Positions 9,176 through 26,082 of a stretch of DNA of 64,000 nt are shown in pieces. The stretch is from Rubellimicrobium roseum. GTDB taxonomy: Bacteria; Pseudomonadota; Alphaproteobacteria; Rhodobacterales; Rhodobacteraceae. The stretch is from contig NZ_VDFV01000001.1 of the NCBI RefSeq assembly GCF_006152145.1, forward strand, positions 248,001 through 312,000, written 5' to 3'. The first letter of the stretch is position 1, and every line of letters begins with the position of its first letter. The position numbers were made by a program, and so were the translations under genes. The notes beneath the pieces were generated by a model. That model had not been told where the DNA came from and ran no database searches. It saw nothing but the letters and a program-made list of their open reading frames with translations.

Positions 9176-9200
9176 GGAACCGCTCGATCAACAGGACGTT
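9176..9200 (+). promoter_or_regulatory. EcfG-type general stress promoter
   Basis: GGAAC, 16 bases, then CGTT: an exact match to the alphaproteobacterial EcfG (sigma-EcfG/PhyR regulon) promoter pattern. It lies about 64 bases before the start of a DUF892 ferritin-like gene, a family often induced by general stress, which supports the assignment. Confidence 0.7.
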
Positions 9201-11184: not shown

Positions 11185-11209
11185 AACGCACCGGGTGTCG
11201 GAGCGTTCC
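11185..11209 (-). promoter_or_regulatory. EcfG-type stress promoter for the SDR gene
   Basis: Read on the minus strand this is GGAAC, 16 bases, CGTT, the exact EcfG promoter pattern, about 55 bases before the SDR start codon. Its GGAAC box abuts another GGAAC box on the plus strand, giving the palindrome GTTCCGGAAC. Confidence 0.65.
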
Positions 11210-11234
11210 GGAACCTCGGCGCGCGGGACGTGTT
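11210..11234 (+). promoter_or_regulatory. Probable EcfG-type promoter for the 102-residue protein gene
   Basis: GGAAC, 16 bases, TGTT: one mismatch in the -10 element compared with CGTT. It is back to back with the minus-strand stress promoter and about 33 bases before the start at 11267, so both flanking genes may be co-induced. Confidence 0.5.
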
Positions 11235-12908: not shown

Positions 12909-12933
12909 GGAACCGTCACGGCCCGCTCCTGTT
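12909..12933 (+). promoter_or_regulatory. Candidate EcfG-like promoter for the inositol operon
   Basis: GGAAC, 16 bases, TGTT, the same near-consensus form as the element at 11210. It ends 48 bases before the first gene of the inositol-glycoside operon. One of four -10 positions deviates, so the assignment is tentative. Confidence 0.45.
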
Positions 12934-12981: not shown

Positions 12982-14091
12982 ATGAAGCTTGTGGTGTTCG
13001 GACTGGCTGTCAGCTCCTCTTGGGGCAACGGCCACGCGACCTTGTGGCGCGGGCTCATCCGTGCGCTGACCCGGCTGGGGCACGAGGTCGTCTTCTTCGA
13101 ACGCGATGTGCCTTGGTACGCCGACACGCGCGATCTCCAAGAGTTGCCCCTAGCGGCCGAGCTGGTGCTTTACGCTGACTGGACCTTGGTCCTGCCCCGC
13201 GCGCGCGCCGAGGTGGCCGGGGCCGACGCAGTGATGGTCACGTCCTTCTGCCCGGACGGCCCTGCCGCCTCGCGACTTGCCTGGGACGAGGCACGAGGCA
13301 CGACTGCCTTCTACGACATGGACACGCCGGTGACGCTGCGCCGGCTCGAAAGCGGCGAGGCGGTGGACTTCCTGCCCCCCGAAGGTCTCGGGCCCTTCGA
13401 CCTCGTGCTCAGCTACACGGGCGGGGTGGCGCTGGATCTCCTGCGCACGCGGCTGGGCGCACGGCGGGTGGCGGCGCTCTACGGCCATGTGGACCCCGAT
13501 GTGCACCGCCCTGCCACCCCCGACCCGACGTTTCGAGGGGACCTGTCCTACCTGGGCACCTATGCCAGCGACCGGCAGGCGGCCTTGGAGCGGCTATTCG
13601 TCGACGTGGCGCGCGCGCGGCCCGGCCAGCGCTTCGTGCTGGCCGGCGCTGCGTATCCTCGGGACTTCCCGTGGACGGACAACATCTTCTTCGTGAAGCA
13701 TCTGCCCCCAGCGCAGCATTCCGCCTTCTTCGCCTCTTCGCGCCTCACGCTCAACGTCACGCGCGAGGCGATGGCCTCAATGGGGTGGTGCCCTTCGGGA
13801 CGGCTTTTCGAGGCGGCGGCCTGCGGCGTTCCCCTTCTCAGCGACACCTGGGCGGGGCTGGGGGATTTCTTCGCTCCGGGAACGGAGATACTGACCGCCC
13901 GCACCACCGCCGAAGCCATCGCGGCGCTGGACCTCACGGATGCCGAACTCCAGCGCGTCAGCCGCGCCGCCCGCGAGCGGGTGCTGGCCCAGCACACCTC
14001 GGCGGCCCGCGCGGCCGAACTCGTCGCTTATCTTGGCGGGTCGTCCTGCCTGTCCGCCATACAAGGGGAGACCGTCGCATGTGGGGAGTGA
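12982..14091 (+). CDS. CgeB-like glycosyltransferase
   Basis: GT-B-fold glycosyltransferase of 369 residues. The N-terminal half starts with a beta strand and the SSSWGNGHATLWRGLIRAL segment, where GT-B enzymes bind the acceptor. The C-terminal half has GDLSYLGTYASDRQ and the donor-binding block RLFEAAACGVPLLSDTW with GLGDFFAPGTEIL, which is characteristic of the Glyco_trans_1_2/CgeB (PF13524) group. It is the first gene of an eight-gene operon; its end overlaps the nucleotidyltransferase by 13 bases. It presumably adds a sugar to the inositol-linked or related acceptor built by the later genes, but neither donor nor acceptor can be read from sequence. Confidence 0.85.
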   Translation: MKLVVFGLAVSSSWGNGHATLWRGLIRALTRLGHEVVFFERDVPWYADTRDLQELPLAAELVLYADWTLVLPRARAEVAGADAVMVTSFCPDGPAASRLAWDEARGTTAFYDMDTPVTLRRLESGEAVDFLPPEGLGPFDLVLSYTGGVALDLLRTRLGARRVAALYGHVDPDVHRPATPDPTFRGDLSYLGTYASDRQAALERLFVDVARARPGQRFVLAGAAYPRDFPWTDNIFFVKHLPPAQHSAFFASSRLTLNVTREAMASMGWCPSGRLFEAAACGVPLLSDTWAGLGDFFAPGTEILTARTTAEAIAALDLTDAELQRVSRAARERVLAQHTSAARAAELVAYLGGSSCLSAIQGETVACGE

Positions 14092-14819
14092 TCCCGGCCG
14101 CCGGGAACGGCACGCGCATTCAGCCCCTCGCCTTCTCCAAGGAACTGCTGCCCGTGGGCGGGCGGCTCTCGGGCGACGGACGCGCCCGACCCAAGGCGGT
14201 CAGTGAATACCTCGTGGAGCGCATGGCGCTCGCAGGAGCCACCAAGGTCTGCTTCGTGATCTCGCCTCACAAGGGTGATATCCTGAAATACTACGGCGGC
14301 CACTGCGACCTCGTGGACATCGCCTATGTCACGCAGCCCGAACCTGCGGGTCTCTGCGACGCGATCTTCCGCGCCCATCCTGTCATCCCCCCGGACGAGC
14401 CGGTGCTGGTGGGCCTGCCCGACACGATCTGGTTTCCCGAGGATGCGCTGCGCGCCTTGCCCGACGACCGGCTGTCCTTTCTCCTCTTCCCCGTCGAGCA
14501 GCCCCAGCACTTTGACGCCGTGGTGACGGACGCGGAAGGTCGGGTGCTGGCCATCGACGTGAAGTCGCCCGAGATCCGTTCGGACTGGGTCTGGGGCGCC
14601 TTCAAGATGCCTGGGCATGTCTTCCACGAGCTGCGCGATTTCTGGCTATCGCGCCCCGAGCCGGACGAGTACATCGGCACGCTGGTCAACGCCTGGCTCG
14701 CGCAAGGCGGCGAGGCGGTGGGCGTCCGCGCCGGGACCATCTACGCCGACGTGGGCACGCTGGAAGGCTATCGCCTGGCGATGGAACTCCTGGGCCCCGC
14801 CGCTGCCGCGGGTGCCTGA
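14079..14819 (+). CDS. Sugar-phosphate nucleotidyltransferase (RmlA-like)
   Basis: NTP-transferase of 246 residues that would make a nucleotide sugar from NTP and a sugar 1-phosphate. The signature is IPAAGNGTRIQPL with KELLPVG at residues 4-26, where the Lys contacts the phosphate; the metal-binding Asp is in VLVGLPDTIWF, and the C-terminal VGTLEGYRLAMEL is typical of RmlA/GlmU-like enzymes. A second, complete RmlA homologue (rfbA) lies at 52886, so this one most likely activates a different sugar for the operon's own glycosyltransferases. The ATG follows GGGGAG with eight bases between and overlaps the upstream gene; longer in-frame starts lie inside that gene. Confidence 0.87.
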   Translation: MWGVIPAAGNGTRIQPLAFSKELLPVGGRLSGDGRARPKAVSEYLVERMALAGATKVCFVISPHKGDILKYYGGHCDLVDIAYVTQPEPAGLCDAIFRAHPVIPPDEPVLVGLPDTIWFPEDALRALPDDRLSFLLFPVEQPQHFDAVVTDAEGRVLAIDVKSPEIRSDWVWGAFKMPGHVFHELRDFWLSRPEPDEYIGTLVNAWLAQGGEAVGVRAGTIYADVGTLEGYRLAMELLGPAAAAGA

Positions 14820-15618
14820 GCCAGTGCCGGGCTTCCTCGACCGACTGGCCCGGCGCGAACGCATCCCCGAGCGCGTGGTCGTGGTGGTGGCCCATCCCGA
14901 CGACGAAGTGCTGGCGGCGGGCTCGCGCATGAACCGCATGGAGAACCTGACGGTGATCCACCTCACCGACGGTGCCCCCCGCGACATGGAGGACGCCCGG
15001 CGGTTGGGCTTGTCCAGCCGCGACGACTACGGACGCATGCGCCGCCGCGAGGTGGTCGCCGCCATGGACGCGCTGGGTGCAGACCCCGAGCTTCTCTGCT
15101 ACTGGCACCCCGACAAGGAAGCGATCCTGCACGGACCGGCCATTCTCGACCAGCTCGTCGAAGACTTGGGCGAAGCGCAGGTCGTCATCACCCACGCCTA
15201 CGAGCACGGCCACCCAGACCACGACACGGCGGCATTGGGCGTGCGGCTGGCGCTGCGCCGCCTGTCCGCCGACGGACGCGAGGTGCCAGGGGTCTACGAA
15301 TTCCCCATCTACGCCATAGAGGGCGATCGGCCCGTCTTCGGTCGCTTCCATCCCGACCCGAAGTCCCCCGAGACAGTGTTGCACCTGACCGAGGCGGAAC
15401 GCGCCCGGCGCGATGCGGCCTTGGCCGAGTACCGCAGCCAAAGTGGCGTCCTCGGCTTTGCGAGCCAATGGGAGGAACGGTTGCGCCCCGCGCCGCTCTA
15501 TGACTTCCGTCAACCGGCGCCGCAGGGTCTCGCCTGGTATGACCGGCACGGCTGGGACATGACGCTGGCTCGCTGGCGGGAGCACGCGAACGCGCTTCTC
15601 GACCGGGAGGGCGCATGA
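14812..15618 (+). CDS. PIG-L/LmbE family deacetylase
   Basis: Zinc-dependent N-deacetylase-like protein of 268 residues. The zinc site is AHPDDE at residues 27-32 and the third ligand is in EHGHPDHD near residue 125. The family includes MshB and PIG-L, which remove acetyl from N-acetylglucosamine linked to inositol, and LmbE-like enzymes in other pathways. Because the same operon makes inositol phosphate and has two glycosyltransferases, deacetylation of a GlcNAc-inositol or similar glycoside is the leading hypothesis. The GTG start overlaps the upstream stop by eight bases; a second GTG lies 12 bases later and cannot be excluded. The stop overlaps the next start as ATGA. Confidence 0.88.
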   Translation: MPEPVPGFLDRLARRERIPERVVVVVAHPDDEVLAAGSRMNRMENLTVIHLTDGAPRDMEDARRLGLSSRDDYGRMRRREVVAAMDALGADPELLCYWHPDKEAILHGPAILDQLVEDLGEAQVVITHAYEHGHPDHDTAALGVRLALRRLSADGREVPGVYEFPIYAIEGDRPVFGRFHPDPKSPETVLHLTEAERARRDAALAEYRSQSGVLGFASQWEERLRPAPLYDFRQPAPQGLAWYDRHGWDMTLARWREHANALLDREGA

Positions 15619-16703
15619 GGCTTTCGGTCCTGAGCGTCGCGTACCCGCTGGCCCCTGTGACCGCCGACCCGGTGGGCGGTGCCGAGCAGGTGCTCGCGCG
15701 GCTCGATCGCGCGCTGGTGGCTCGCGGGCACCGCTCGCTGGTCATCGCCTGCGAGGGCTCGCGGGTCGCGGGCGATTTGCGCCCCATCCCGGCCGTCGCG
15801 GGCCCGATCACCGACTGGGACGCCGAGCGCGTCCGCGCCGCCGTCCGCGCGCGCATCGCCGAGGTCGTCGCGAGCGATCGGCCCGATGTGATCCACCTCC
15901 ACGGCATCGATTTTCCCTCCTACCTGCCGCTCCCGGGGCCGCCGGTCCTCGTGACGCTGCATCTGCCGCTCGACTGGTATCCCCCCGAGGCCTTGGCCCC
16001 CGTGCGGCCCGGCACGCACCTGCACCCCGTCTCCGCCGCGCAGGCCGCCACCGCGCCGCCCGGGTCCCGGATCGAGGCGCCCATTGAGAACGGAGTGGAC
16101 ATCCCCGACCTCAAGCAGCGGCGCCGCTGCTACGTCTTCGCGCTGGGCCGGATCTGCCCGGAGAAGGGCTTCGACGACGCGCTCGATGCCGCGCGACTGG
16201 CCCACGTACCGCTCCTCCTTGCCGGTACCGTCTTCCCCTACCCCGACCACGAGCGGCACTTCCGCAGGGCCATTGCTCCACGCCTATCGTGGCGACGGCG
16301 CTGGATCGGTCCCGTCGAGGGCGCGCGCAAGCAGGCGCTGCTCGCAAATGCGCGCTGCGTCCTCCTGCCCTGCAAGGCGCGCGAGACCTCCTCGCTGGTC
16401 ACCATGGAGGCTCTGGCCGCTGGAACGCCAGTGATCGCCTATCCAACCGGTGCCCTGCCCGACATCGTGGAGCACGGGCGGACCGGCTTTCTCGTCCGCG
16501 ACGTCCCCGAGATGGCCGAGGCTATCCGAAAGGTTGGCGCCTTGGACCCCGAAACCTGCCGCGCCGCCGCCATTGCCCGATTCGGGGCCGACCGCATGAT
16601 CGAAGGTTATCTGCGCCGGTACGAAGACTTGGCAGCCAAGTCAGCGAGGCTCCGCCCAATCGAGACGGTCACTGGAACCTCACAGGCCCGCGAACGTTTG
16701 TAG
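15615..16703 (+). CDS. GT4 family glycosyltransferase
   Basis: GT-B glycosyltransferase of 362 residues. The N-terminal domain carries PVGGAEQVLARLDRALVARG and IHLHGIDFPSYLP. The C-terminal donor domain carries FALGRICPEKGFDDAL, the basic pocket around RWIGPVEGARKQALL, and the EX7E-type block ETSSLVTMEALAAGTPVIAYPTGALPDIV in two parts. MshA, which joins GlcNAc to inositol phosphate, is in the same family, and the presence of inositol-phosphate synthase and a PIG-L deacetylase in the operon makes an MshA-like reaction plausible; this is inference. It overlaps the deacetylase gene by four bases. After its stop there is a 32-base gap before the phosphatase frame, the largest gap in the operon. 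Confidence 0.88.
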   Translation: MRLSVLSVAYPLAPVTADPVGGAEQVLARLDRALVARGHRSLVIACEGSRVAGDLRPIPAVAGPITDWDAERVRAAVRARIAEVVASDRPDVIHLHGIDFPSYLPLPGPPVLVTLHLPLDWYPPEALAPVRPGTHLHPVSAAQAATAPPGSRIEAPIENGVDIPDLKQRRRCYVFALGRICPEKGFDDALDAARLAHVPLLLAGTVFPYPDHERHFRRAIAPRLSWRRRWIGPVEGARKQALLANARCVLLPCKARETSSLVTMEALAAGTPVIAYPTGALPDIVEHGRTGFLVRDVPEMAEAIRKVGALDPETCRAAAIARFGADRMIEGYLRRYEDLAAKSARLRPIETVTGTSQARERL

Positions 16704-16725
16704 CCGAACGAAAGTAGAAGGCTTC

Positions 16726-16731
16726 GGGGGG
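16726..16731 (+). promoter_or_regulatory. Poly-G ribosome-binding site that decides the phosphatase start
   Basis: Six consecutive G bases, able to pair with the anti-Shine-Dalgarno sequence, lie four bases before an in-frame ATC. No ATG, GTG or TTG exists between the upstream in-frame stop at 16715 and the conserved phosphatase motif. Confidence 0.45.
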
Positions 16732-16735
16732 TCCC

Positions 16736-17338
16736 ATCAGCGTCCGGCTTTATCTGATCCGCCACGCCACCCACGCGGATTTCGGGCACCGGCTCACCGG
16801 CCGGGCCGCAGGCGTGCCCCTCACGCCCGAGGGCGAGCGGCAGGCCGCTGCGCTGGGCCGTCACCTCTCTGGAGAAGGGCTGACCGCCATCCACACCAGC
16901 TCCCGCGAGCGCGCCCGCGCCACGGCCGAAGCCATAGCCCAAGCGACTGGCGCACCTCTCGCGGTGGTCGAAGCGCTGGACGAGATCGACTTCGGCGACT
17001 GGACGGGCACCGAGTTCGCCACCCTGTCCGGCCAGCCCGCCTGGGATGACTGGAATAATCGCCGCGCCAGCGCACGCATCCCGCGCGGCGAGAGCATGGC
17101 CGAGGCCGCCGCCCGCATCGAGATCCATGTGGCGTCGCTCTCGATGCGCTCGAGCGAGCGGATCGCCCTCGTCACCCACTGCGACATGATCCGCGCCCTC
17201 GTGGCCCGCGTGCTGGGCCTGTCGCTCGACCACCTCCTGCGCTTTGAGATCGGACCCGCCTCGATCAGTCGCTTGGAGGCCGGGCGCTGGGGCGCTCGGG
17301 TGCTTTCCCTCAACGAATCCATCGGAATGACCGCATGA
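16736..17338 (+). CDS. Histidine phosphatase family protein with an apparent non-standard start
   Basis: Phosphoglycerate-mutase-like phosphatase of about 200 residues. The catalytic RHG-type motif is LIRHATHAD near the N-terminus, the second Arg is in SSRERARATAEA, the Glu in LDEIDFGDWTG, and the second His in LVTHCDMIRAL. The first standard start codon in frame (GTG at 16814) lies after the catalytic RHA, so it cannot be the true start. The frame begins after a TAG at 16715 and contains only ATC at 16736 as a plausible near-cognate start, preceded by GGGGGG. Either ATC is used, or a former ATG has mutated, or there is a base error. The gene overlaps the methyltransferase by four bases. It may dephosphorylate a glycosyl-inositol phosphate, by analogy with mycothiol synthesis (inference). 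Confidence 0.78.
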   Translation: MSVRLYLIRHATHADFGHRLTGRAAGVPLTPEGERQAAALGRHLSGEGLTAIHTSSRERARATAEAIAQATGAPLAVVEALDEIDFGDWTGTEFATLSGQPAWDDWNNRRASARIPRGESMAEAAARIEIHVASLSMRSSERIALVTHCDMIRALVARVLGLSLDHLLRFEIGPASISRLEAGRWGARVLSLNESIGMTA

Positions 17339-18114
17339 AGGACGTGCCTGAACCCGGCAACGACGACCTCGCCCGCCGCATCGAAGCCCTGGGACCCTGG
17401 TTCCATAACCTGAGGCTCGGTGGCATCGAGACGGCGCCCGGCCATTTCCTGGGCGACTTTCCCCGCACCAAGTTCGAGCGGTTCGCCCATGCGATCCCTG
17501 AACGCCTCGATGGCAAGTCCGTGCTCGACATCGGGTGCAACGCCGGCTTCTACAGCTTGGAGTTGAAGCGGCGCGGCGCCTCGCGCGTGCTCGGCATCGA
17601 CCATGACGAGCATTATCTTCGACAGGCGCGGCTCGCGGCCGAGATCGAGGGCTTGGAGATCGAGTTCCGGCAACTCGAAGTCTACGACGTGGGAGCGCTG
17701 GGCGAGACGTTCGACGTCGTGGTCTTCATGGGCGTGCTCTACCACCTGCGTCACCCCCTTCTGGCGCTCGACCTCATCCGCGAGCATGTCTGCGGCGACC
17801 TGATGGTCTTCCAGTCCCTCTTGCGCGGCCCGGAGCAGGTGCTGGACGTGCCGGAGGAGGCGCCTTTCTCCGAGGAGGCGATGTTCGAGACCGCCGGCTA
17901 TCCGGCCGCATACTTCATCGAGCATCTCTATGCCGACGACTGGACCAACTGGTGGGTCCCGAACCGCGCGGGCGTCGAGGCCATGCTGCGGGCCTCGGGC
18001 TTCTCCATCGAGACGCGCGCGTCCGAGGACGTCTATATCTGCCGCCGCGCCGAGGTGCCCTATGCGCAATGGGGCGCGGGCGCGGCCTATCCGGCAAGGG
18101 GAGCCGCGCGATGA
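17335..18114 (+). CDS. SAM-dependent methyltransferase (CmoB-like, TIGR04290-type)
   Basis: Class I methyltransferase of 259 residues. The SAM-binding motif I is VLDIGCNAGFYSLE (around residue 64), followed by acidic loop GIDHDEHY and motif LEVYDVGALGETFDVVVFMGVLYHLRHP. Regions before and after match the CmoB-like fold, and the WF(H)NLRLGGIET and DDWTNWWVPN segments fit a family annotated as TIGR04290, known from gene neighbourhood only; I state that match from memory. Its substrate is probably the sugar or inositol product of the operon, but this is not shown. It starts at an ATGA overlap with the phosphatase and ends at an ATGA overlap with the next gene, so translation is tightly coupled. 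Confidence 0.87.
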   Translation: MKDVPEPGNDDLARRIEALGPWFHNLRLGGIETAPGHFLGDFPRTKFERFAHAIPERLDGKSVLDIGCNAGFYSLELKRRGASRVLGIDHDEHYLRQARLAAEIEGLEIEFRQLEVYDVGALGETFDVVVFMGVLYHLRHPLLALDLIREHVCGDLMVFQSLLRGPEQVLDVPEEAPFSEEAMFETAGYPAAYFIEHLYADDWTNWWVPNRAGVEAMLRASGFSIETRASEDVYICRRAEVPYAQWGAGAAYPARGAAR

Positions 18115-19034
18115 TCGACTCGGTGATGTTCTGGAACGAGCCCAACAACAAGTCCCACTGGGACCCGGCGCTCGATCCCGACTGGTCGCGGTTCGCCGCG
18201 ATGATCAACCTTGCGGGGTCGGCCGTCGCGGGCGTGAATCCCGGCATGACGCGGGTTCTGGGAGGCATCTCGCCCATCGACCCCAACTATATCCGGCATC
18301 TGGGGACCCTGGGCGTGCTCGACAGCGTCGACGTGATCGCCGTCCATGGGTTCCCGCTCGACTGGAACCTGTGGCAGATTCATGAATGGCCCGCCAAGGT
18401 CGCCGAGATCGAGGCCGTGGCGCCCCATCACCCCGTCTGGGTGAGCGAGGTGGGCGTAGGCTCGTTCGGGGCCGAGGAGGTGCAGGTCTTCGGCGTCCAG
18501 AAGACGGCGGAGCTGCTCGTCGGCCGCGTTCCCCGCGTCTACTGGTATTCGCTCTTCGACCTGCCGCGCGAATGGGGGGCCACGACACGGCACAAGGAGG
18601 CCGAAGGGTCGAGCTACTACCGTCACTTCTACATGGGCCTCATCCGTGAGGACGGCACCCCGAAGCCGGGCCTTGATGCCTACGCGCCCCATGCAGCCGA
18701 GATGGGCCTCATGCAGTGGTTCCACTTCGAGGACCCGCGCCTGCCAACGGCCGTGGAATGGATGAAGCGGCTGGACGTGCGGCACCTGCGCACCGGACTT
18801 TCCTGGGCCGACAGCTTTCGCCCTAACGCTCTCGACTGGTTCGACCGCCAGATGGAGGCGCTTCAGGATTTCGACGTGATGGTGACCTTCTGCTTCACCC
18901 CCGAGCACCTGGGCCAGGGCCGCCACCACACGAGCCCGCCGGACGACCCGCAGCAGTTCGCGGACTTCTGCGCGGCCATGATCGAACGCTACGCGCCCGC
19001 GATGCCCGCGCGCGCCACCGCAGGGAGGATCTGA
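18111..19034 (+). CDS. Glycoside-hydrolase-like protein, apparently circularly permuted TIM barrel
   Basis: Protein of 307 residues resembling clan-A glycoside hydrolases (GH39-like). The acid/base motif WNEP, normally at the end of strand 4 in mid-protein, is at residues 8-11. The nucleophile motif VSEVG is at 111-115, WYSLFDLP at 145-152. After the expected end of the barrel (about residue 195) the chain continues with MQWFHFEDP, LRTGLSWADSFRP and VTFCFTPEH, which look like strands 1 to 3 of the same fold, and ends at MIERYAP where strand 4 would begin. The order is therefore second half then first half. Both catalytic Glu residues (10 and 113) are present. There is no signal peptide. It may hydrolyse or transglycosylate the operon's product, or be a binding protein. 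The start is the ATGA overlap. Confidence 0.75.
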   Translation: MIDSVMFWNEPNNKSHWDPALDPDWSRFAAMINLAGSAVAGVNPGMTRVLGGISPIDPNYIRHLGTLGVLDSVDVIAVHGFPLDWNLWQIHEWPAKVAEIEAVAPHHPVWVSEVGVGSFGAEEVQVFGVQKTAELLVGRVPRVYWYSLFDLPREWGATTRHKEAEGSSYYRHFYMGLIREDGTPKPGLDAYAPHAAEMGLMQWFHFEDPRLPTAVEWMKRLDVRHLRTGLSWADSFRPNALDWFDRQMEALQDFDVMVTFCFTPEHLGQGRHHTSPPDDPQQFADFCAAMIERYAPAMPARATAGRI

Positions 19035-19035
19035 G

Positions 19036-20151
19036 GTGCCCGACGGAAGTCTCGCCCGCGAGGGCATCAACGTCGCCATCGTGGGCATGGGCAACTGCGC
19101 GAGCTCGCTCGTGCAGGGGATCGCCCTGTATCGCGACCACGACAGGAACGAGCACACGGGCCTCATGCACTGGGACCTCGGCGGTTACCGGCCCAGCGAC
19201 ATCCGTATCGTCGCGGCTTGGGACATCGACCGGCGCAAGGTCGGGCAGGACGTCGCCCGCGCCATCTTCGAGAAGCCCAATTGCACCGCCATCTTCTGCG
19301 CCGATGTGCCCGAAACCGGCGCGAAGGTACGGATGGGCAAGGTTCTCGACGGCTTCGCGCCGCACATGGCCGAACAGCCCGAACATCGCACCTTCCTGAA
19401 GGCCGACCTGCCCGAGCCCGATCGCGACGAGGTCGTTCGCACCCTGCGCGAGACGGGGACTCATGTCCTGATGAACTATCTTCCCGTGGGCAGCCAGAAG
19501 GCGACCGAGTTCTACGCCGAATGCGCCATCGAGGCTGGTGTCGCCTTCGTCAACAACATTCCCGTCTTTATCGCTTCGGACCCTGCCTGGGCCCAGCGCT
19601 TCGCCGCGGCGGGCGTGCCCATCATCGGTGACGACATCAAGGCGCAGGTGGGCGCCACCATCGTCCATCGGGTGCTCACGGACCTCTTCGCCAAGCGCGG
19701 CGTGCGGCTCGACCGGACCTACCAGCTCAACACCGGGGGAAACACCGACTTCCTCAACATGTGGGCCCGCGACCGGGTGGCCTCCAAGAAGATCTCCAAG
19801 ACCGAGGCCGTGCAGGCCGTCGCCGGTCAGCGGCTCGACTGGGAGAACATCCATGTCGGGCCGTCGGACTACGTCCCTTGGCAGAACGACAACAAGGTGG
19901 CCTTCATCCGGCTTGAGGGCACCATGTTCGGGGGCGTGCCCATGCACATGGAGCTCCGCCTTTCGGTCGAGGACTCGCCGAATTCCGCGGGCGTCGCCAT
20001 CGACCTGATCCGCTGCGCCAAGCTGGCCCGCGACCGGGGCCTCGCCGGTCCCATCGAGGCGCCGGCCGCCTTTTTCTGCAAGCACCCACCCCGGCAGATG
20101 CAAGACGACCTGGCCTATCAGGCCGTCGAGGATTTCATCCGCGAAGGCTGA
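19036..20151 (+). CDS. ino1: myo-Inositol-1-phosphate synthase
   Basis: Converts glucose 6-phosphate to 1L-myo-inositol 1-phosphate using bound NAD. The protein has 371 residues, the bacterial/archaeal short type. The NAD-binding motif GMGNCASSLVQG is near residue 17; core motifs TGTHVLMNYLPVGSQKAT, NNIPVFIASDPAW, GDDIKAQVGATIVHRVL, QLNTGGNTDF and SKKISKTEAV are all present, including the Lys residues of the active site. A GTG start lies one base after the preceding stop region and follows GGGAGGA. It closes the operon; a strong hairpin terminator lies ten bases after its stop. Free inositol phosphate would feed the GT4 enzyme encoded upstream, as in mycothiol or phosphatidylinositol synthesis. 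Confidence 0.95.
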   Translation: MPDGSLAREGINVAIVGMGNCASSLVQGIALYRDHDRNEHTGLMHWDLGGYRPSDIRIVAAWDIDRRKVGQDVARAIFEKPNCTAIFCADVPETGAKVRMGKVLDGFAPHMAEQPEHRTFLKADLPEPDRDEVVRTLRETGTHVLMNYLPVGSQKATEFYAECAIEAGVAFVNNIPVFIASDPAWAQRFAAAGVPIIGDDIKAQVGATIVHRVLTDLFAKRGVRLDRTYQLNTGGNTDFLNMWARDRVASKKISKTEAVQAVAGQRLDWENIHVGPSDYVPWQNDNKVAFIRLEGTMFGGVPMHMELRLSVEDSPNSAGVAIDLIRCAKLARDRGLAGPIEAPAAFFCKHPPRQMQDDLAYQAVEDFIREG

Positions 20152-20160
20152 AACGGCAAG

Positions 20161-20186
20161 GCCCCCGGCCGAAAGGACCGGGGGCC
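20161..20186. terminator. Hairpin terminator between ino1 and the beta-helix gene
   Basis: GCCCCCGG and CCGGGGGC form an eight-base-pair stem around a nine-base loop. It separates two convergent transcription units and may serve both; neither side has a long T-run. Confidence 0.65.
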
Positions 20187-20220
20187 GTCGGGGTCTCTAG
20201 CTGCCCGTGGGAACGGGCGA

Positions 20221-22188
20221 TCAGGCCATCAGGCCAGTGTCCTGGTGCGACGGCACGAGGTCGAAGCGCGCGTCGTCCTCGGTCAGGTCCGCGACGGCGT
20301 AGTCGAGGTCCTGCTCCTGCGCCGAGCTGGCCGAAAGGACGTCGCTCGAGGCTGCGGGCCCCTCGCCACCCAACGTGATCTCGAATGCCGAGATGTCGCC
20401 GTTGAAGTTCGCGCGATCCCAGGGGCTGCCGAAGACCATGTCATGCGAGCCGAACCGGCTTCCGCCGACGACGCCATCGCAGTCGGTCTGGGCGGCCAGC
20501 TTGTCGTCCACCCAGATCTGAAGCTTGCCGTCCTCGAGGTTGACCACGATGGAGTGGTCCTTTCCGGCGGTGGCGTTGAGCGCGGCCCCCTTGGTCGTCA
20601 GGCTCACGGTGGTGTCACCCTCGCGCTGAATGCGGAAGTTCAACTCGCCCGTCGAAGTGACCGAGGCCAGGAAACTACCATGCATGCGGAAAAGCTCGCC
20701 CGCTGCGCCTGCTGCATCCGCATCCAGTTTGAAGGCGATCATCATGTCGTCGGTGCCGACGACCTCGTCCATGTGCTGGCGGTCCACCCGGGCCGTCACG
20801 CCCTTGGCGGTCAGCTGCATCCCGTCCGAAGTCATCGAGGGGGCCGCGCCCAAATCGACGGACTCGGTCCCGTCCCAGCCCACGAAACGACCGCTCACGA
20901 GTTTCAAGACGTCCGTTTCCGAAGCTGTCGGAACCTGAGGAACGTCGACGTCAGGCGCGGGCGTGGTCGGGTCAACAGGTTTGGCGACCGCGCCACTCAG
21001 TCCCTGCGTGAGCAGCGAGCCCGCATTGAGCTTGTCGATCTCGCTGCCCGTGAGGGCGACAAAGACGTGCTCGCCGGCAGCGTCGGTGAGGGAAGCCGCC
21101 GTGAAGAGCTTGCTGTAGTGGTTCGCCTTGGTGGCGTCCTGATCCTGAGCCACGATGTTGTCGGCCACCGTCCAGCCAGCCCTGGCATCCGGCAGGTAGG
21201 CCGTGATGTTCTTGGTCACGACGACGTTCTGCGAGCCCGAAGCGACACTGATCCGGGGGATCTCCACGCCGGAGTCCTTGCCGTCGTCAAACTCACCATC
21301 GGCCCGCAGGACCGAGTTGTTGCGGATCGTAAGCCCGTTCGTCTCACCCACGGTGATGCCGTGAGCATGGCTGTTCGTGACCGTGTTGTTCTCGATCAGG
21401 ATGTTCTGGTAGGCCATGGCGGCAAAGGACTTGCGCCCAAGATCCACTTCCTCGTTGCGCATGAAGATGGACTGGGTCCAGCCGCCGTCGCCAATGTCGA
21501 GCACGTTGTCGCGGATCGTTATGTTCTTCGACGGAACAACCGTGCCGGTCGTGAAGAACTGGATCATGTCAGCGTGATCCACGGAGGCATAGGACCGCTT
21601 GAAATCGTGAATGTGATTTCCTTCGATCAGGACGTCCTGTACCGCCGAAAAATTCATCCCATCCATCCGGATCGAATGAATGTCGTTATCGCGCACCGTC
21701 AGCTTGGAGTTACCAGTGTGGACCATGCCCCGATAGAAATCGAAGATCTCGTTATTCTCGATCACCACACCGGCGCTGCCGCGCACGAACAGGCCGACTC
21801 CATAGCCGAAGCCGTTCGCGGTGGCAGAAACGCCGCTCGCGAGGTCCCCGTCGAACGTGCTGTTGCGGATCGTGAGGTTGTCGCAAACGTCGAAGGTGAA
21901 GGGACGATAGGTGATCGGGTCGCCGGCTTCGAACTCATAATCGAACTTGATCGAATCGAAGGTCAGGTTCGACGCGCCCCGTGCGATGACGGAGTCGAAG
22001 ACCGCTGGGCGCGACGGGTCGGCCGACTTGATCGTGATGTTCGGCGGTAGATTGATGTCGAAATCAGTCTGCCTGTCCAGGCGGAACTCACCGTAGTTCC
22101 CGCTGCTCAGCAGGATCGTCTCGCCACCCTTGCAGGAGCCCAGAGCGGTATAGAGTTGTGACAGATTAGAAACGTTGATGGTCGACAT
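20221..22188 (-). CDS. Right-handed beta-helix protein with C-terminal lectin-like domain, probably type-I secreted
   Basis: Protein of 655 residues. Residues 1-350 form repeated beta-helix coils with many IENN, IRNN and VRDN turns, as in polysaccharide lyases and epimerases. A conserved cluster, IHSIRMDGMNF then NHIHDF and DHADMIQF (about residues 170-215), probably marks the active groove; the same cluster occurs in the paralogue at 28763. A Pro-rich linker (PTTPAPDVDVPQVP) leads to a LamG/concanavalin-like domain (about 440-620). No Sec signal peptide is visible, and the neighbouring genes encode a type I ABC exporter and HlyD adaptor, so export by that system is likely. The C-terminal 40 residues are acidic with Asp and Ala, as in type I secretion tails. 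Substrate unknown; the surrounding exopolysaccharide is a candidate. Confidence 0.8.
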   Translation of the reverse strand: MSTINVSNLSQLYTALGSCKGGETILLSSGNYGEFRLDRQTDFDINLPPNITIKSADPSRPAVFDSVIARGASNLTFDSIKFDYEFEAGDPITYRPFTFDVCDNLTIRNSTFDGDLASGVSATANGFGYGVGLFVRGSAGVVIENNEIFDFYRGMVHTGNSKLTVRDNDIHSIRMDGMNFSAVQDVLIEGNHIHDFKRSYASVDHADMIQFFTTGTVVPSKNITIRDNVLDIGDGGWTQSIFMRNEEVDLGRKSFAAMAYQNILIENNTVTNSHAHGITVGETNGLTIRNNSVLRADGEFDDGKDSGVEIPRISVASGSQNVVVTKNITAYLPDARAGWTVADNIVAQDQDATKANHYSKLFTAASLTDAAGEHVFVALTGSEIDKLNAGSLLTQGLSGAVAKPVDPTTPAPDVDVPQVPTASETDVLKLVSGRFVGWDGTESVDLGAAPSMTSDGMQLTAKGVTARVDRQHMDEVVGTDDMMIAFKLDADAAGAAGELFRMHGSFLASVTSTGELNFRIQREGDTTVSLTTKGAALNATAGKDHSIVVNLEDGKLQIWVDDKLAAQTDCDGVVGGSRFGSHDMVFGSPWDRANFNGDISAFEITLGGEGPAASSDVLSASSAQEQDLDYAVADLTEDDARFDLVPSHQDTGLMA

Positions 22189-23900: not shown

Positions 23901-25877
23901 TCAGCGGCGGCCGGCGGCCGACTGGTCGCCGAGGCGCGCCATGGCCTGGGCCACGCGGCGGGGCATGGGGGGATCGGCTTCGGGGACATCGGCGCCGTGG
24001 GGGGGCACCTGCGCTGTCTCCAGCACGTTGGCGAGCCGCGTGAACAGGTTCTCAGCCGCCGGCGCAGCTTGGACCACGACCGGCTCCCATCCGAGCCGTG
24101 CCGGCATGGCGGCGGGCGCGAGCGGGATATGGTCGTTCGCCGGCAGCACCGCAGTCGGGCCCAGCACGTCCGAAACGGGGCCGAACCGCTCCACCCGGCC
24201 GTCCTTGAGCACGAGCGCCTTGTTGAGCACAGCCAGGGCGGCGGGGCGGTGCGTGACCACGATCACCACCGATCCGGCGCGGCGCAGAAGCGTGATCACC
24301 CGCGCCAGCGCCTCGTCACCGGCCGCGTCCAGGTGGGCGTTGGGCTCGTCGAGCACCACCACCTTGGGCCGGCCACAGATGGCGCGCGCGAGACCCAGCC
24401 GCTGCATCTGGCCGCCCGAAAGCGTGGCCCCGCCGGCGCCACCCACTTCAGTGGCATAGCCCTTGGGCAGGCTCAGGATCAATTCATGGATGCCCACGAC
24501 CTTGGCCGCCTCGATCACCATCTCGTCGGTCACGCTGGGATCGAAGCGGGCGATGTGGTCGCGGGCCGTGCCGGGCAGCAGGTCGGGAAGCTGCGGCAGG
24601 TAACCCAGATGACGGCCCAGCCGCTCGGGCGCCCATTGGTCGAGCGTGGCGCCGTCCAGCCGGACCTCGCCCGCATCAGGGGTGACGATCCCCATGAGCA
24701 CGCGCGCGAGCGTGGACTTGCCGCTGCCCGAGGGACCGACGATGGCCAGGCCGTCGCCCGGCTCGAGCGAGAAGCCCACCTCGTCGAGGAGAGGCCGGCG
24801 CTCGCTGTTGTTGGCCGAAGGGGGCGCGAGCTTGGTGACGTCGCGCAGCTCGATATGGCCCTGCGGCTCGGGCAGGTCGACCACGGCCAGCGTGTCGGGC
24901 GCGTCGGCAAAGCTGCGGCGCAGGGCGTCGCGGGCCCGGGCCGCGCGCTGGATCGCGCGCCAGTTGCCGATGATCTGGTCCACGGGCCCCAGTGCCTTGC
25001 CGGACAGAATGGAGGAGGCGATGATCATGCCGCCGGTGATTTCGCCCTGGATGACGAGCCAGGCGCCCGCGGACAGGATCGCCGACTGGAGGAGCATGCG
25101 AAACGCGCGACTGGTGGCGGCGATCATCTCGGCCGGATGACCCGAGCGCTGGCCCGCGGCGAGCGCGACGTTGCGGAGACCCTGCCAGCGGCTGACCACG
25201 GCACCCTGCATACCCATGCCGAAGATCGCCTCGGCGCCGCGGCGGGACCGTTCGGCCAGCTCGCGCTCGGCGGACTCGCCTGCCAGCGTCCGGTCGATGG
25301 CGTCACGGGTCAGCAGATGGTTCGCCCAGGCAAGGGCGGCCGTGACCAGGGCGCCGGCGATCGTGACCGCGCAGAGCATCGGATGCACGAGATAAAGCAC
25401 CACGAGGTAGAGGGGCACCAGCGGCGCATCGAAGAGCGCGCCCACCGCGCCGCCCGACAGGAAACCGCGCACCGTGTCGAGGTTCTGCAGCGGCTGGGAG
25501 GGAGCAGCGACCGGCTGGCCGGCGCGTGGCACGCCCGGAAGTCCCTGCCGCAGGAGCTGGGCGAAGGCCCCCGCTCCCAGCGCGAGGTCGAGCCGCACGG
25601 CGGCGAGGCCTAGGATCCGGGCCCTGAGGAAGTCGAAGAAGCCCAGGAAGGCGTAAAGGACCACGACGATGGCGAAGAGGGCGAGCAGCGTTTCGACCGA
25701 CTGGCTCGTGAGAACGCGGTCGTAGACCTGCAGCATGTAGATCGAGCCCGTCAGCATCAGGACATTGAGCACGATGCTGAAGCCGAAGACCGCGACGCAG
25801 GTGCGTCGCAGATTCCGCCAGGCCGCAAGGAACACGGCCCGGGGCTGGGGCGTTATGGTGGTGAAGTGCGAGTTCAT
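23901..25877 (-). CDS. Type I secretion permease/ATPase (PrtD-like)
   Basis: ABC transporter half-protein of 658 residues with an N-terminal six-helix membrane domain (about 25-310) and a C-terminal ATPase. Walker A is GPSGSGKST, the signature is LSGGQMQRLGLARA, and Walker B is VVVLDEPNAHLD followed by the His switch VVTHRP. The HlyB-type C39 peptidase-like domain is absent, so this is the PrtD class that exports proteins with C-terminal signals. A Pro/Ala-rich extension of about 100 residues follows the ATPase. The start at 25877 (MNSHFTTI) is preferred over an upstream in-frame ATG because the conserved part begins here. A poly-G ribosome-binding site precedes it. Partner adaptor gene follows directly. 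Confidence 0.93.
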   Translation of the reverse strand: MNSHFTTITPQPRAVFLAAWRNLRRTCVAVFGFSIVLNVLMLTGSIYMLQVYDRVLTSQSVETLLALFAIVVVLYAFLGFFDFLRARILGLAAVRLDLALGAGAFAQLLRQGLPGVPRAGQPVAAPSQPLQNLDTVRGFLSGGAVGALFDAPLVPLYLVVLYLVHPMLCAVTIAGALVTAALAWANHLLTRDAIDRTLAGESAERELAERSRRGAEAIFGMGMQGAVVSRWQGLRNVALAAGQRSGHPAEMIAATSRAFRMLLQSAILSAGAWLVIQGEITGGMIIASSILSGKALGPVDQIIGNWRAIQRAARARDALRRSFADAPDTLAVVDLPEPQGHIELRDVTKLAPPSANNSERRPLLDEVGFSLEPGDGLAIVGPSGSGKSTLARVLMGIVTPDAGEVRLDGATLDQWAPERLGRHLGYLPQLPDLLPGTARDHIARFDPSVTDEMVIEAAKVVGIHELILSLPKGYATEVGGAGGATLSGGQMQRLGLARAICGRPKVVVLDEPNAHLDAAGDEALARVITLLRRAGSVVIVVTHRPAALAVLNKALVLKDGRVERFGPVSDVLGPTAVLPANDHIPLAPAAMPARLGWEPVVVQAAPAAENLFTRLANVLETAQVPPHGADVPEADPPMPRRVAQAMARLGDQSAAGRR

Positions 25878-26082
25878 CGTCCCGTCCCATCGCAACCGGG
25901 GCGCTTCACAGCCATGCGACGACGGCCCTCCGGGCGGGAGGGGTCTAGGCATGGGCTGCGTCACTGGTCCCTGGTTCTTGTCAGCTGGCTATCGTCCCCA
26001 GCGGCACGAGAGGTCGCCGGCAACTGCGCCGATTTCAAGGCGATCTGTGGGCGACAGCCCGGATCGGTGAACAATCGCTCAA

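Follow-up and report, generated by a model that had tools for sequence, protein, structure and literature searches.

What might be made by a run of eight genes that joins glycosyltransferases and a zinc deacetylase to an inositol-phosphate synthase, and is that run itself the natural unit? The question is raised by a 64,000-nucleotide stretch of the Rubellimicrobium roseum genome (assembly GCF_006152145.1, contig NZ_VDFV01000001.1, positions 248,001 to 312,000; hereafter the window), in which the genes, named g1 to g8 in transcription order, are listed in Table 1. The open reading frames (ORFs) of the window with their translations and the family searches (PF13524, NTP_transferase, PIG-L, GT4, His_Phos_1, S-adenosylmethionine (SAM) methyltransferase and Inos-1-P_synth) agree on eight intact genes, all on the forward strand, head to tail and in the order and families named in a first-pass annotation of the sequence. 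The mostly 4- to 13-base overlaps described there are likewise found at five of the seven junctions (13, 8, 4, 4 and 4 bases), the other two being a 32-base gap before the phosphatase gene, counted from the ATC at 16736, and a 1-base gap before ino1. That annotation took the set for one operon making a glucosaminyl-inositol core like that of mycothiol. We propose instead that the set consists of two neighbouring modules of four genes each, induced in the general stress response directed by EcfG, of a larger pathway that leads to a cytoplasmic, decorated and probably inositol-containing oligosaccharide or glycoside; we give this reading a probability of roughly 0.6.

Module 1 consists of g1 to g4 (CgeB-like glycosyltransferase, nucleotidyltransferase, PIG-L deacetylase and GT4 glycosyltransferase) and module 2 of g5 to g8 (histidine phosphatase, TIGR04290 methyltransferase, glycoside hydrolase (GH)-like barrel and the inositol-phosphate synthase Ino1). 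We divide them because a second promoter-like site, P2, precedes g5 and because the two halves are distributed separately; the same two observations argue against taking all eight genes as one natural transcription unit, with read-through from the site upstream of g1, P1, perhaps still taking place. The order g1 to g8 is kept in all five Rubellimicrobium loci with full flanks (the window and L032-L035), so the arrangement goes beyond chance; the methyltransferases of the four named Rubellimicrobium loci are 83-91% identical to that of the window. In Rubellimicrobium mesophilum (L035) an insertion of about 2 kb that contains a GNAT gene parts g4 from g5, and a sixth, more distant Rubellimicrobium (G006) shows no GT4 match in the 793 bases before its phosphatase. 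The nucleotidyltransferase and PIG-L genes of L035 (3579-6310) are split over two frames, through either decay or an assembly error.

The eight-gene order, looked for across the alphaproteobacteria, is a property of the genus and is not kept beyond it. Two Skermanella plasmids (L106 and L108) carry an operon of CgeB, nucleotidyltransferase, PIG-L, GT4 and two GNAT genes, with identities to g1, g2, g3 and g4 of 64-65, 68-69, 40-41 and 57-59%, respectively, and no match to g5 to g8, Ino1 included, was seen in these stretches of 25-29 kb. Module 2 is complete without g1 to g4 in 11 loci; in eight of these (L041, L042, L048, L051, L053, L057, L059 and L064), from sphingomonads and their relatives and from Paracoccus, the order is phosphatase, methyltransferase, GH and Ino1. 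The two gene sets are interleaved in other ways in Alsobacter (L039) and elsewhere, and g1 and g2 occur without g3 and g4 in L037, L043, L046, L055 and L067. The pathway is scattered over several alphaproteobacterial orders, on chromosomes and on plasmids, among them pSymB of Sinorhizobium meliloti.

Examination of the upstream regions points to a common form of control. P1 is present at -71 to -73 of g1 in all five Rubellimicrobium loci compared (the G006 sequence does not reach this region), and P2 lies at -62 to -66 of g5 in the same five. Each copy of P2 has the strict CGTT, and with a further one in G006 the site is present in all six cluster-bearing Rubellimicrobium species. The stress promoter-like site that had been noticed upstream is therefore there, yet it is one of two, and P2 is the stricter. 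Both are of the GGAAC-N16/17-CGTT type tabulated for EcfG in PMC6599016. The looser motif GGAAC-N17/18-GTT occurs in 41 of 111 upstream regions of putative operon-first genes (40 sequences; some regions are common to divergent genes and some first genes are misassigned), whereas random windows cut from these sequences average 2.1 (no more than 7 in any of 200 draws) and Markov shuffles 0.6; for the strict form the figures are 16, 0.8 and 0.2. A promoter motif of the general-stress type is thus conserved above chance at these loci. A genome search also recovered NepR and PhyR together (contig C132) and a second PhyR (C87), and EcfG may well control the genes.

Gene content was counted in 39 methyltransferase-anchored sequences (the window plus 38 loci; L068 was dropped as a near-duplicate of L070), in which absence counts are minima, since the flanks are limited. 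Besides the methyltransferase (39 by construction), these hold the GH (34, one of canonical order), Epi2 (29, including a weak paralogue in the window), Epi1, CgeB2, CgeB3 and CgeB4 (28 each), the phosphatase and GT4b (27 each), Ino1 (24), ZnDH and Gfo (23 each), UXS (16), CgeB1 and the nucleotidyltransferase (11 each), DUF1003 and FrhB (9 each), PPT (8), PIG-L and GT4a (6 each), rSAM and hyp585 (4 each) and PPM (2). This paralogue, at 50.9 kb, was set aside as lying outside the system. In R. roseum the additional genes form a second locus, block B, on another contig (about G000:C22:72983-84480), with UXS and ZnDH on one strand and Epi1, Epi2, GT4b, CgeB2-4 and DUF1003 on the opposite one; Gfo had no match there. 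Block B adjoins module 2 in other genomes. Among 240 genomes of the class, the permuted GH described below is found in 4 (R. roseum included) and the block-B Epi1 in 13, Epi1 being present in 4/4 genomes with the permuted GH versus 9/236 others (Fisher p = 5e-6). Within the genus it is present in 6/6 genomes with the methyltransferase over cut-off and 0/2 without. A third locus with an EcfG-type motif, on contig C60, encodes a GNAT homologue 42% identical to the Skermanella GNAT, and the sequence around this gene corresponds to the L035 insertion; a GNAT match follows GT4a in Alsobacter (L039) too. Strict sites stand 66-71 bases 5' of the Epi1 match of block B and at -94 of the GNAT gene. At least two more loci bearing EcfG-type sites, block B and the GNAT locus, thus appear to be part of the pathway, of which the eight genes would then be only a portion.

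Further genes were observed near some clusters. Cytochrome c oxidase genes lie close by on plasmids of Skermanella, Bradyrhizobium and Rhizobium (L106 19674-28251; L067 27324-28705; L065 23988-28705). A phosphopentomutase gene, deoB, follows the GH gene in Bradyrhizobium (L067 15679-16884; 510.5 bits, cut-off 256), with a homologue at about 11.6 kb in a Xanthobacteraceae locus (L037), which hints at a pentose-1-phosphate input.

Is inositol, then, an ingredient of the product? This is likely from the gene content: g8 is a full-length homologue of the solved structure 1gr0 (E 1.8e-116, residues 10-368) with PF01658 over cut-off, and among NCBIfam models the S. meliloti ZnDH and Gfo proteins linked to the cluster come closest to two inositol dehydrogenases, IolM and IolG, without reaching either cut-off. 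A sugar pathway, as first supposed, is also supported by the gene families. The proposed glucosaminyl-inositol core fared less well. In this alternative an MshA/MshB-like core would be made and then extended and methylated, and it accounts for the neighbourhood of Ino1, GT4, phosphatase and PIG-L in Rubellimicrobium and Alsobacter and for the intact PIG-L and GT4 motifs. Mycothiol biosynthesis indeed draws on the same classes, Ino1, GT4 and PIG-L, but unlike in that system the scores stay below the cut-offs: g4 reaches 34.1 bits against 462.5 for MshA (TIGR03449), g3 19.7 against 224.35 for MshB (TIGR03445) and g8 441.7 against 638 for the mycothiol-type INO1 (TIGR03450). No MshC exceeds its cut-off in the genome (best 270.5 versus 485.1 bits; 1 of 14 control genomes does), in agreement with the earlier view that the ligase is lacking, and a mycothiol-like product was rejected because the MshA, MshB and MshC cut-offs were not reached. 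The solved GT4s nearest to g4 by profile are 8x3q and 7fg9 (E ~2e-41), while 3c48 (MshA, listed as 'Predicted glycosyltransferases') matches at 6e-11 over positions 207-315. Moreover, the GT4/PIG-L pair occurs in 6 of the 39 loci, 18 of the 24 Ino1 loci are without PIG-L in the stretch covered, and the Skermanella pair is without Ino1 nearby, so that we regard such a core as unlikely.

Ino1 might also serve another purpose, either phosphatidylinositol or a stand-alone compatible solute (methylated inositol, for example), and have only stress control in common with its neighbours. The modules are separable and the methyltransferase could act on inositol itself; on the other hand, Ino1 adjoins GH, methyltransferase or phosphatase genes in several alphaproteobacterial groups. 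Three CDP-alcohol phosphotransferases were found, PgsA (over cut-off) and PssA-like and phosphatidylcholine-synthase-like proteins (both below), and none of them passes for a phosphatidylinositol-phosphate synthase, the first two scoring 25.6 and 31.9 against a cut-off of 170 and the third having no score listed. A role of Ino1 beyond phosphatidylinositol supply, as originally suggested, is consistent with this, supply of that lipid was rejected for the same reason, and a separate role of either kind is in our view very improbable.

Returning to the two-module pathway, we can outline how the parts might act. In module 2 Ino1 would make inositol-3-phosphate, from which the phosphatase probably frees inositol, the methyltransferase might cap a sugar or cyclitol, and the g7 barrel might trim or transfer a glycosyl unit. 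In module 1 the nucleotidyltransferase would make a nucleoside-diphosphate (NDP) sugar for the CgeB-like transferase, and the GT4 would add an N-acetylated sugar that PIG-L then deacetylates; the GNAT enzyme, encoded among the relatives and at the third locus here, could re-acylate the amine. Block B would supply sugar-nucleotide epimerases or a decarboxylase (UXS), along with four further glycosyltransferases. Counting g1, g4, GT4b and CgeB2-4, there are at least six such transferases, which imply a multi-sugar product. The cluster genes include no recognised exporter, and we therefore favour a glycoside or oligosaccharide of the cytoplasm, perhaps protecting against stress or desiccation, with a surface glycan as the chief alternative.

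Such a glycan would be a secreted or outer-membrane polysaccharide, or a lipid-linked glycan, with the GH-A barrel as an editing hydrolase of the kind proposed for exopolysaccharide systems. The solved structure closest to g7 in sequence is that of PslG, which belongs to the Psl exopolysaccharide system, and the presence of UXS in 16 of the 39 loci speaks for the same alternative. Against it, annotations and family searches recognised no flippase, polymerase or initiating transferase among the cluster genes, a negative limited by hyp585, which is without a family, by DUF1003, with its two hydrophobic segments, and by flanking ABC and TRAP transporter genes (L068, L064) judged separate by eye only; nor is a strongly hydrophobic segment predicted in any of g1 to g8. 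We consider a surface glycan possible, though on balance improbable. Several observations nevertheless count against the cytoplasmic, stress-induced inositol product. Pyruvyl-transferase-like genes near the cluster (PPT in 8/39 loci, FrhB in 9/39) suggest a surface glycan, and 15 of the 39 loci show no Ino1, although their flanks are limited and it may lie elsewhere. The two genus-mates without the cluster are genomes only 85-88% complete. Upstream regions taken from related species lack independence, and no site is present in 70 of the 111. The word 'inositol' is absent from the main text of PMC6599016, which deals with EcfG in Sphingomonas melonis Fr1. Finally, the two strands of the window together contain 4 strict matches, not much more than the ~0.7 to 3 that scaling predicts by chance; single unconserved matches therefore mean little, and the argument is one of conservation and position.

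The barrel encoded by g7 shows an unusual topology. It has no Pfam or NCBIfam match at E 0.001, and some of its relatives are annotated as 'beta-xylosidase'. A profile of 32 g7 relatives aligned with PslG in two swapped pieces, query 3-153 to PslG 132-301 (24.6 bits) and, weakly, query 200-295 to PslG 25-130 (6.4 bits). Three homologues of canonical order occur in like clusters (L061, and L062 and L065, both fused to Epi2); the native g7 profile matches them in two swapped pieces and a rotated profile in one, the continuous matches scoring 183.5, 189.9 and 123.8 bits. The canonical homologues alone (A8) had no solved-structure match at E 0.001 and no Pfam match, and rotated window g7 aligned with them gave a continuous match to PslG 29-307 (E 2.6e-7). 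Across 39 loci and the window, the strand order is permuted in 34 (two of them S. meliloti strains), canonical in 3, neither in 3 and both in none. An AlphaFold2 model of g7 from 27 sequences (pLDDT 82.2, pTM 0.84) has eight strands, with the WNEPN strand first, canonical strands 1-3 last and the break between strands 3 and 4. g7 is thus predicted to be a clan GH-A (beta/alpha)8 barrel with acid/base and nucleophile glutamates, a putative glycosidase, and its strand order, as read from sequence, is non-canonical and circularly permuted. It is like PslG and GH39-type glycosidases in its barrel strands and in both glutamate motifs (the catalytic motifs WNEPN and W-x-S/T-E), whose residues in g7, Glu10 and Glu113, are invariant in 32 sequences; unlike them, it has the first three strand-helix units at the C-terminus. 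Foldseek, which aligns in sequence order, listed generic and weak TIM-barrel matches only (query TM <=0.48 among the 50 matches listed). We therefore base the permutation on sequence order and predicted strand order, the fold search itself having been discarded as proof. The canonical barrel-Epi2 fusions (L065 6446-8488; L062 3327-5396) lie in clusters where a permuted GH was not found. Permuted and canonical barrels in the same type of cluster offer a natural experiment in protein topology.

The phosphatase gene probably starts at an AUC codon. An ATC stands at the same place in all six Rubellimicrobium species, one of which encodes a protein that is only 59% identical and has GGGGAGG 8 bases 5' of the ATC. 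In the window and L034 an upstream stop closes the frame shortly before the ATC with no ATG, GTG or TTG between, and in the window none precedes the codons of the catalytic RH motif; a start at the GTG at 16814 was rejected, as it would remove that motif. The reading frame continues 5' of this point in L032, L033, L035 and G006, where a P1-type transcript could yield a longer protein. Between P2 and the RH codons the six species have no in-frame ATG, GTG or TTG except in L033, where a TTG overlaps the last base of P2 and should precede the transcription start, and in G006, where a GTG directly before the RH codons would delete the first strand if used. CTG codons between ATC and RH do occur and could serve as alternative starts. 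Among five other homologues, that of L042 appears to start with GTG and that of L064 with ATG. This probable, conserved AUC start gives evidence on translational control that can be put to the test.

Two proteins of the wider cluster have already been modelled by NCBI: g6 is over the curated cut-off of TIGR04290 (meth_Rta_06860), and the TIGR04295 (B12_rSAM_oligo) protein is present in 4/39 loci, the Bradyrhizobium one having been scored and found over cut-off. Both models are 'hypothetical equivalogs' without assigned function. Unlike TIGR04295 neighbourhoods, the eight genes and block B show no radical SAM match nearby, and unlike those of either model the eight-gene set includes PIG-L and GT4. 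A literature search returned no paper on TIGR04290, Rta_06860, 'rhizo-twelve' or the combination of Ino1, histidine phosphatase and CgeB; titles and abstract beginnings on the stress response with inositol synthase, on EcfG with inositol, on permuted glycosidases and on AUC starts hold nothing on this pathway, and the sole passage retrieved with S. meliloti gene tags (in PMC12542648) is irrelevant. As for the EcfG regulon, inositol is unmentioned in the searchable text of the stress papers queried by word, and the link here is suggested by sequence sites. What emerges is a set of about 15 or more enzymes, apparently a target of the general stress response, for which our searches found no product, and a route to asking what stressed alphaproteobacteria make. 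It is doubtful, if attractive, that in many of them the response yields an undescribed desiccation-protective inositol oligosaccharide, with the permuted GH-A protein as a biosynthetic transglycosidase and the AUC start as a throttle in Rubellimicrobium.

Table 1. Genes and candidate control elements of the eight-gene region, in window coordinates; catalytic motifs are given for g3 and g4
Feature	Position	Strand	Remarks
P1, EcfG-type promoter-like site GGAAC-N17-GTT	12909..12933	+	73 bases 5' of g1
g1, CgeB-like glycosyltransferase	12982..14091	+	PF13524
g2, short RmlA-like nucleotidyltransferase	14079..14819	+	NTP_transferase
g3, PIG-L zinc deacetylase, GTG start	14812..15618	+	AHPDDE and HPDHD motifs
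g4, GT4 glycosyltransferase	15615..16703	+	E-x7-E motif ETSSLVTME
P2, internal EcfG-type site, strict GGAAC-N16-CGTT	16674..16698	+	before g5, overlapping the end of g4
g5, histidine phosphatase	16736..17338	+	probable AUC start (16736-16738); His_Phos_1 158.7 bits
g6, TIGR04290 SAM methyltransferase	17335..18114	+	355.5 bits, cut-off 300
g7, clan GH-A glycosidase-like TIM barrel, circularly permuted	18111..19034	+	Glu10, Glu113 invariant
g8, inositol-3-phosphate synthase Ino1	19036..20151	+	single copy found in genome
GC-rich hairpin after ino1	20160..20186	+	from folding; without U-tract

The single closing hairpin of the first-pass annotation is strong (20150-20225 folds at -43 kcal/mol, z -2.8), but no U-tract follows it. 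Elsewhere in the window, a strict EcfG-type match at 25829-25854 (+), possibly due to chance, lies inside a minus-strand ABC-transporter-like ORF (23901-25964). Further matches at 9176-9200, 11185-11209 (-) and 11210-11234 stand ~57-88 bases 5' of a ferritin-like DUF892-type gene (~9264), a short-chain dehydrogenase/reductase (SDR) gene (~11130, -) and a small gene (~11267), and the region may be a general-stress island.

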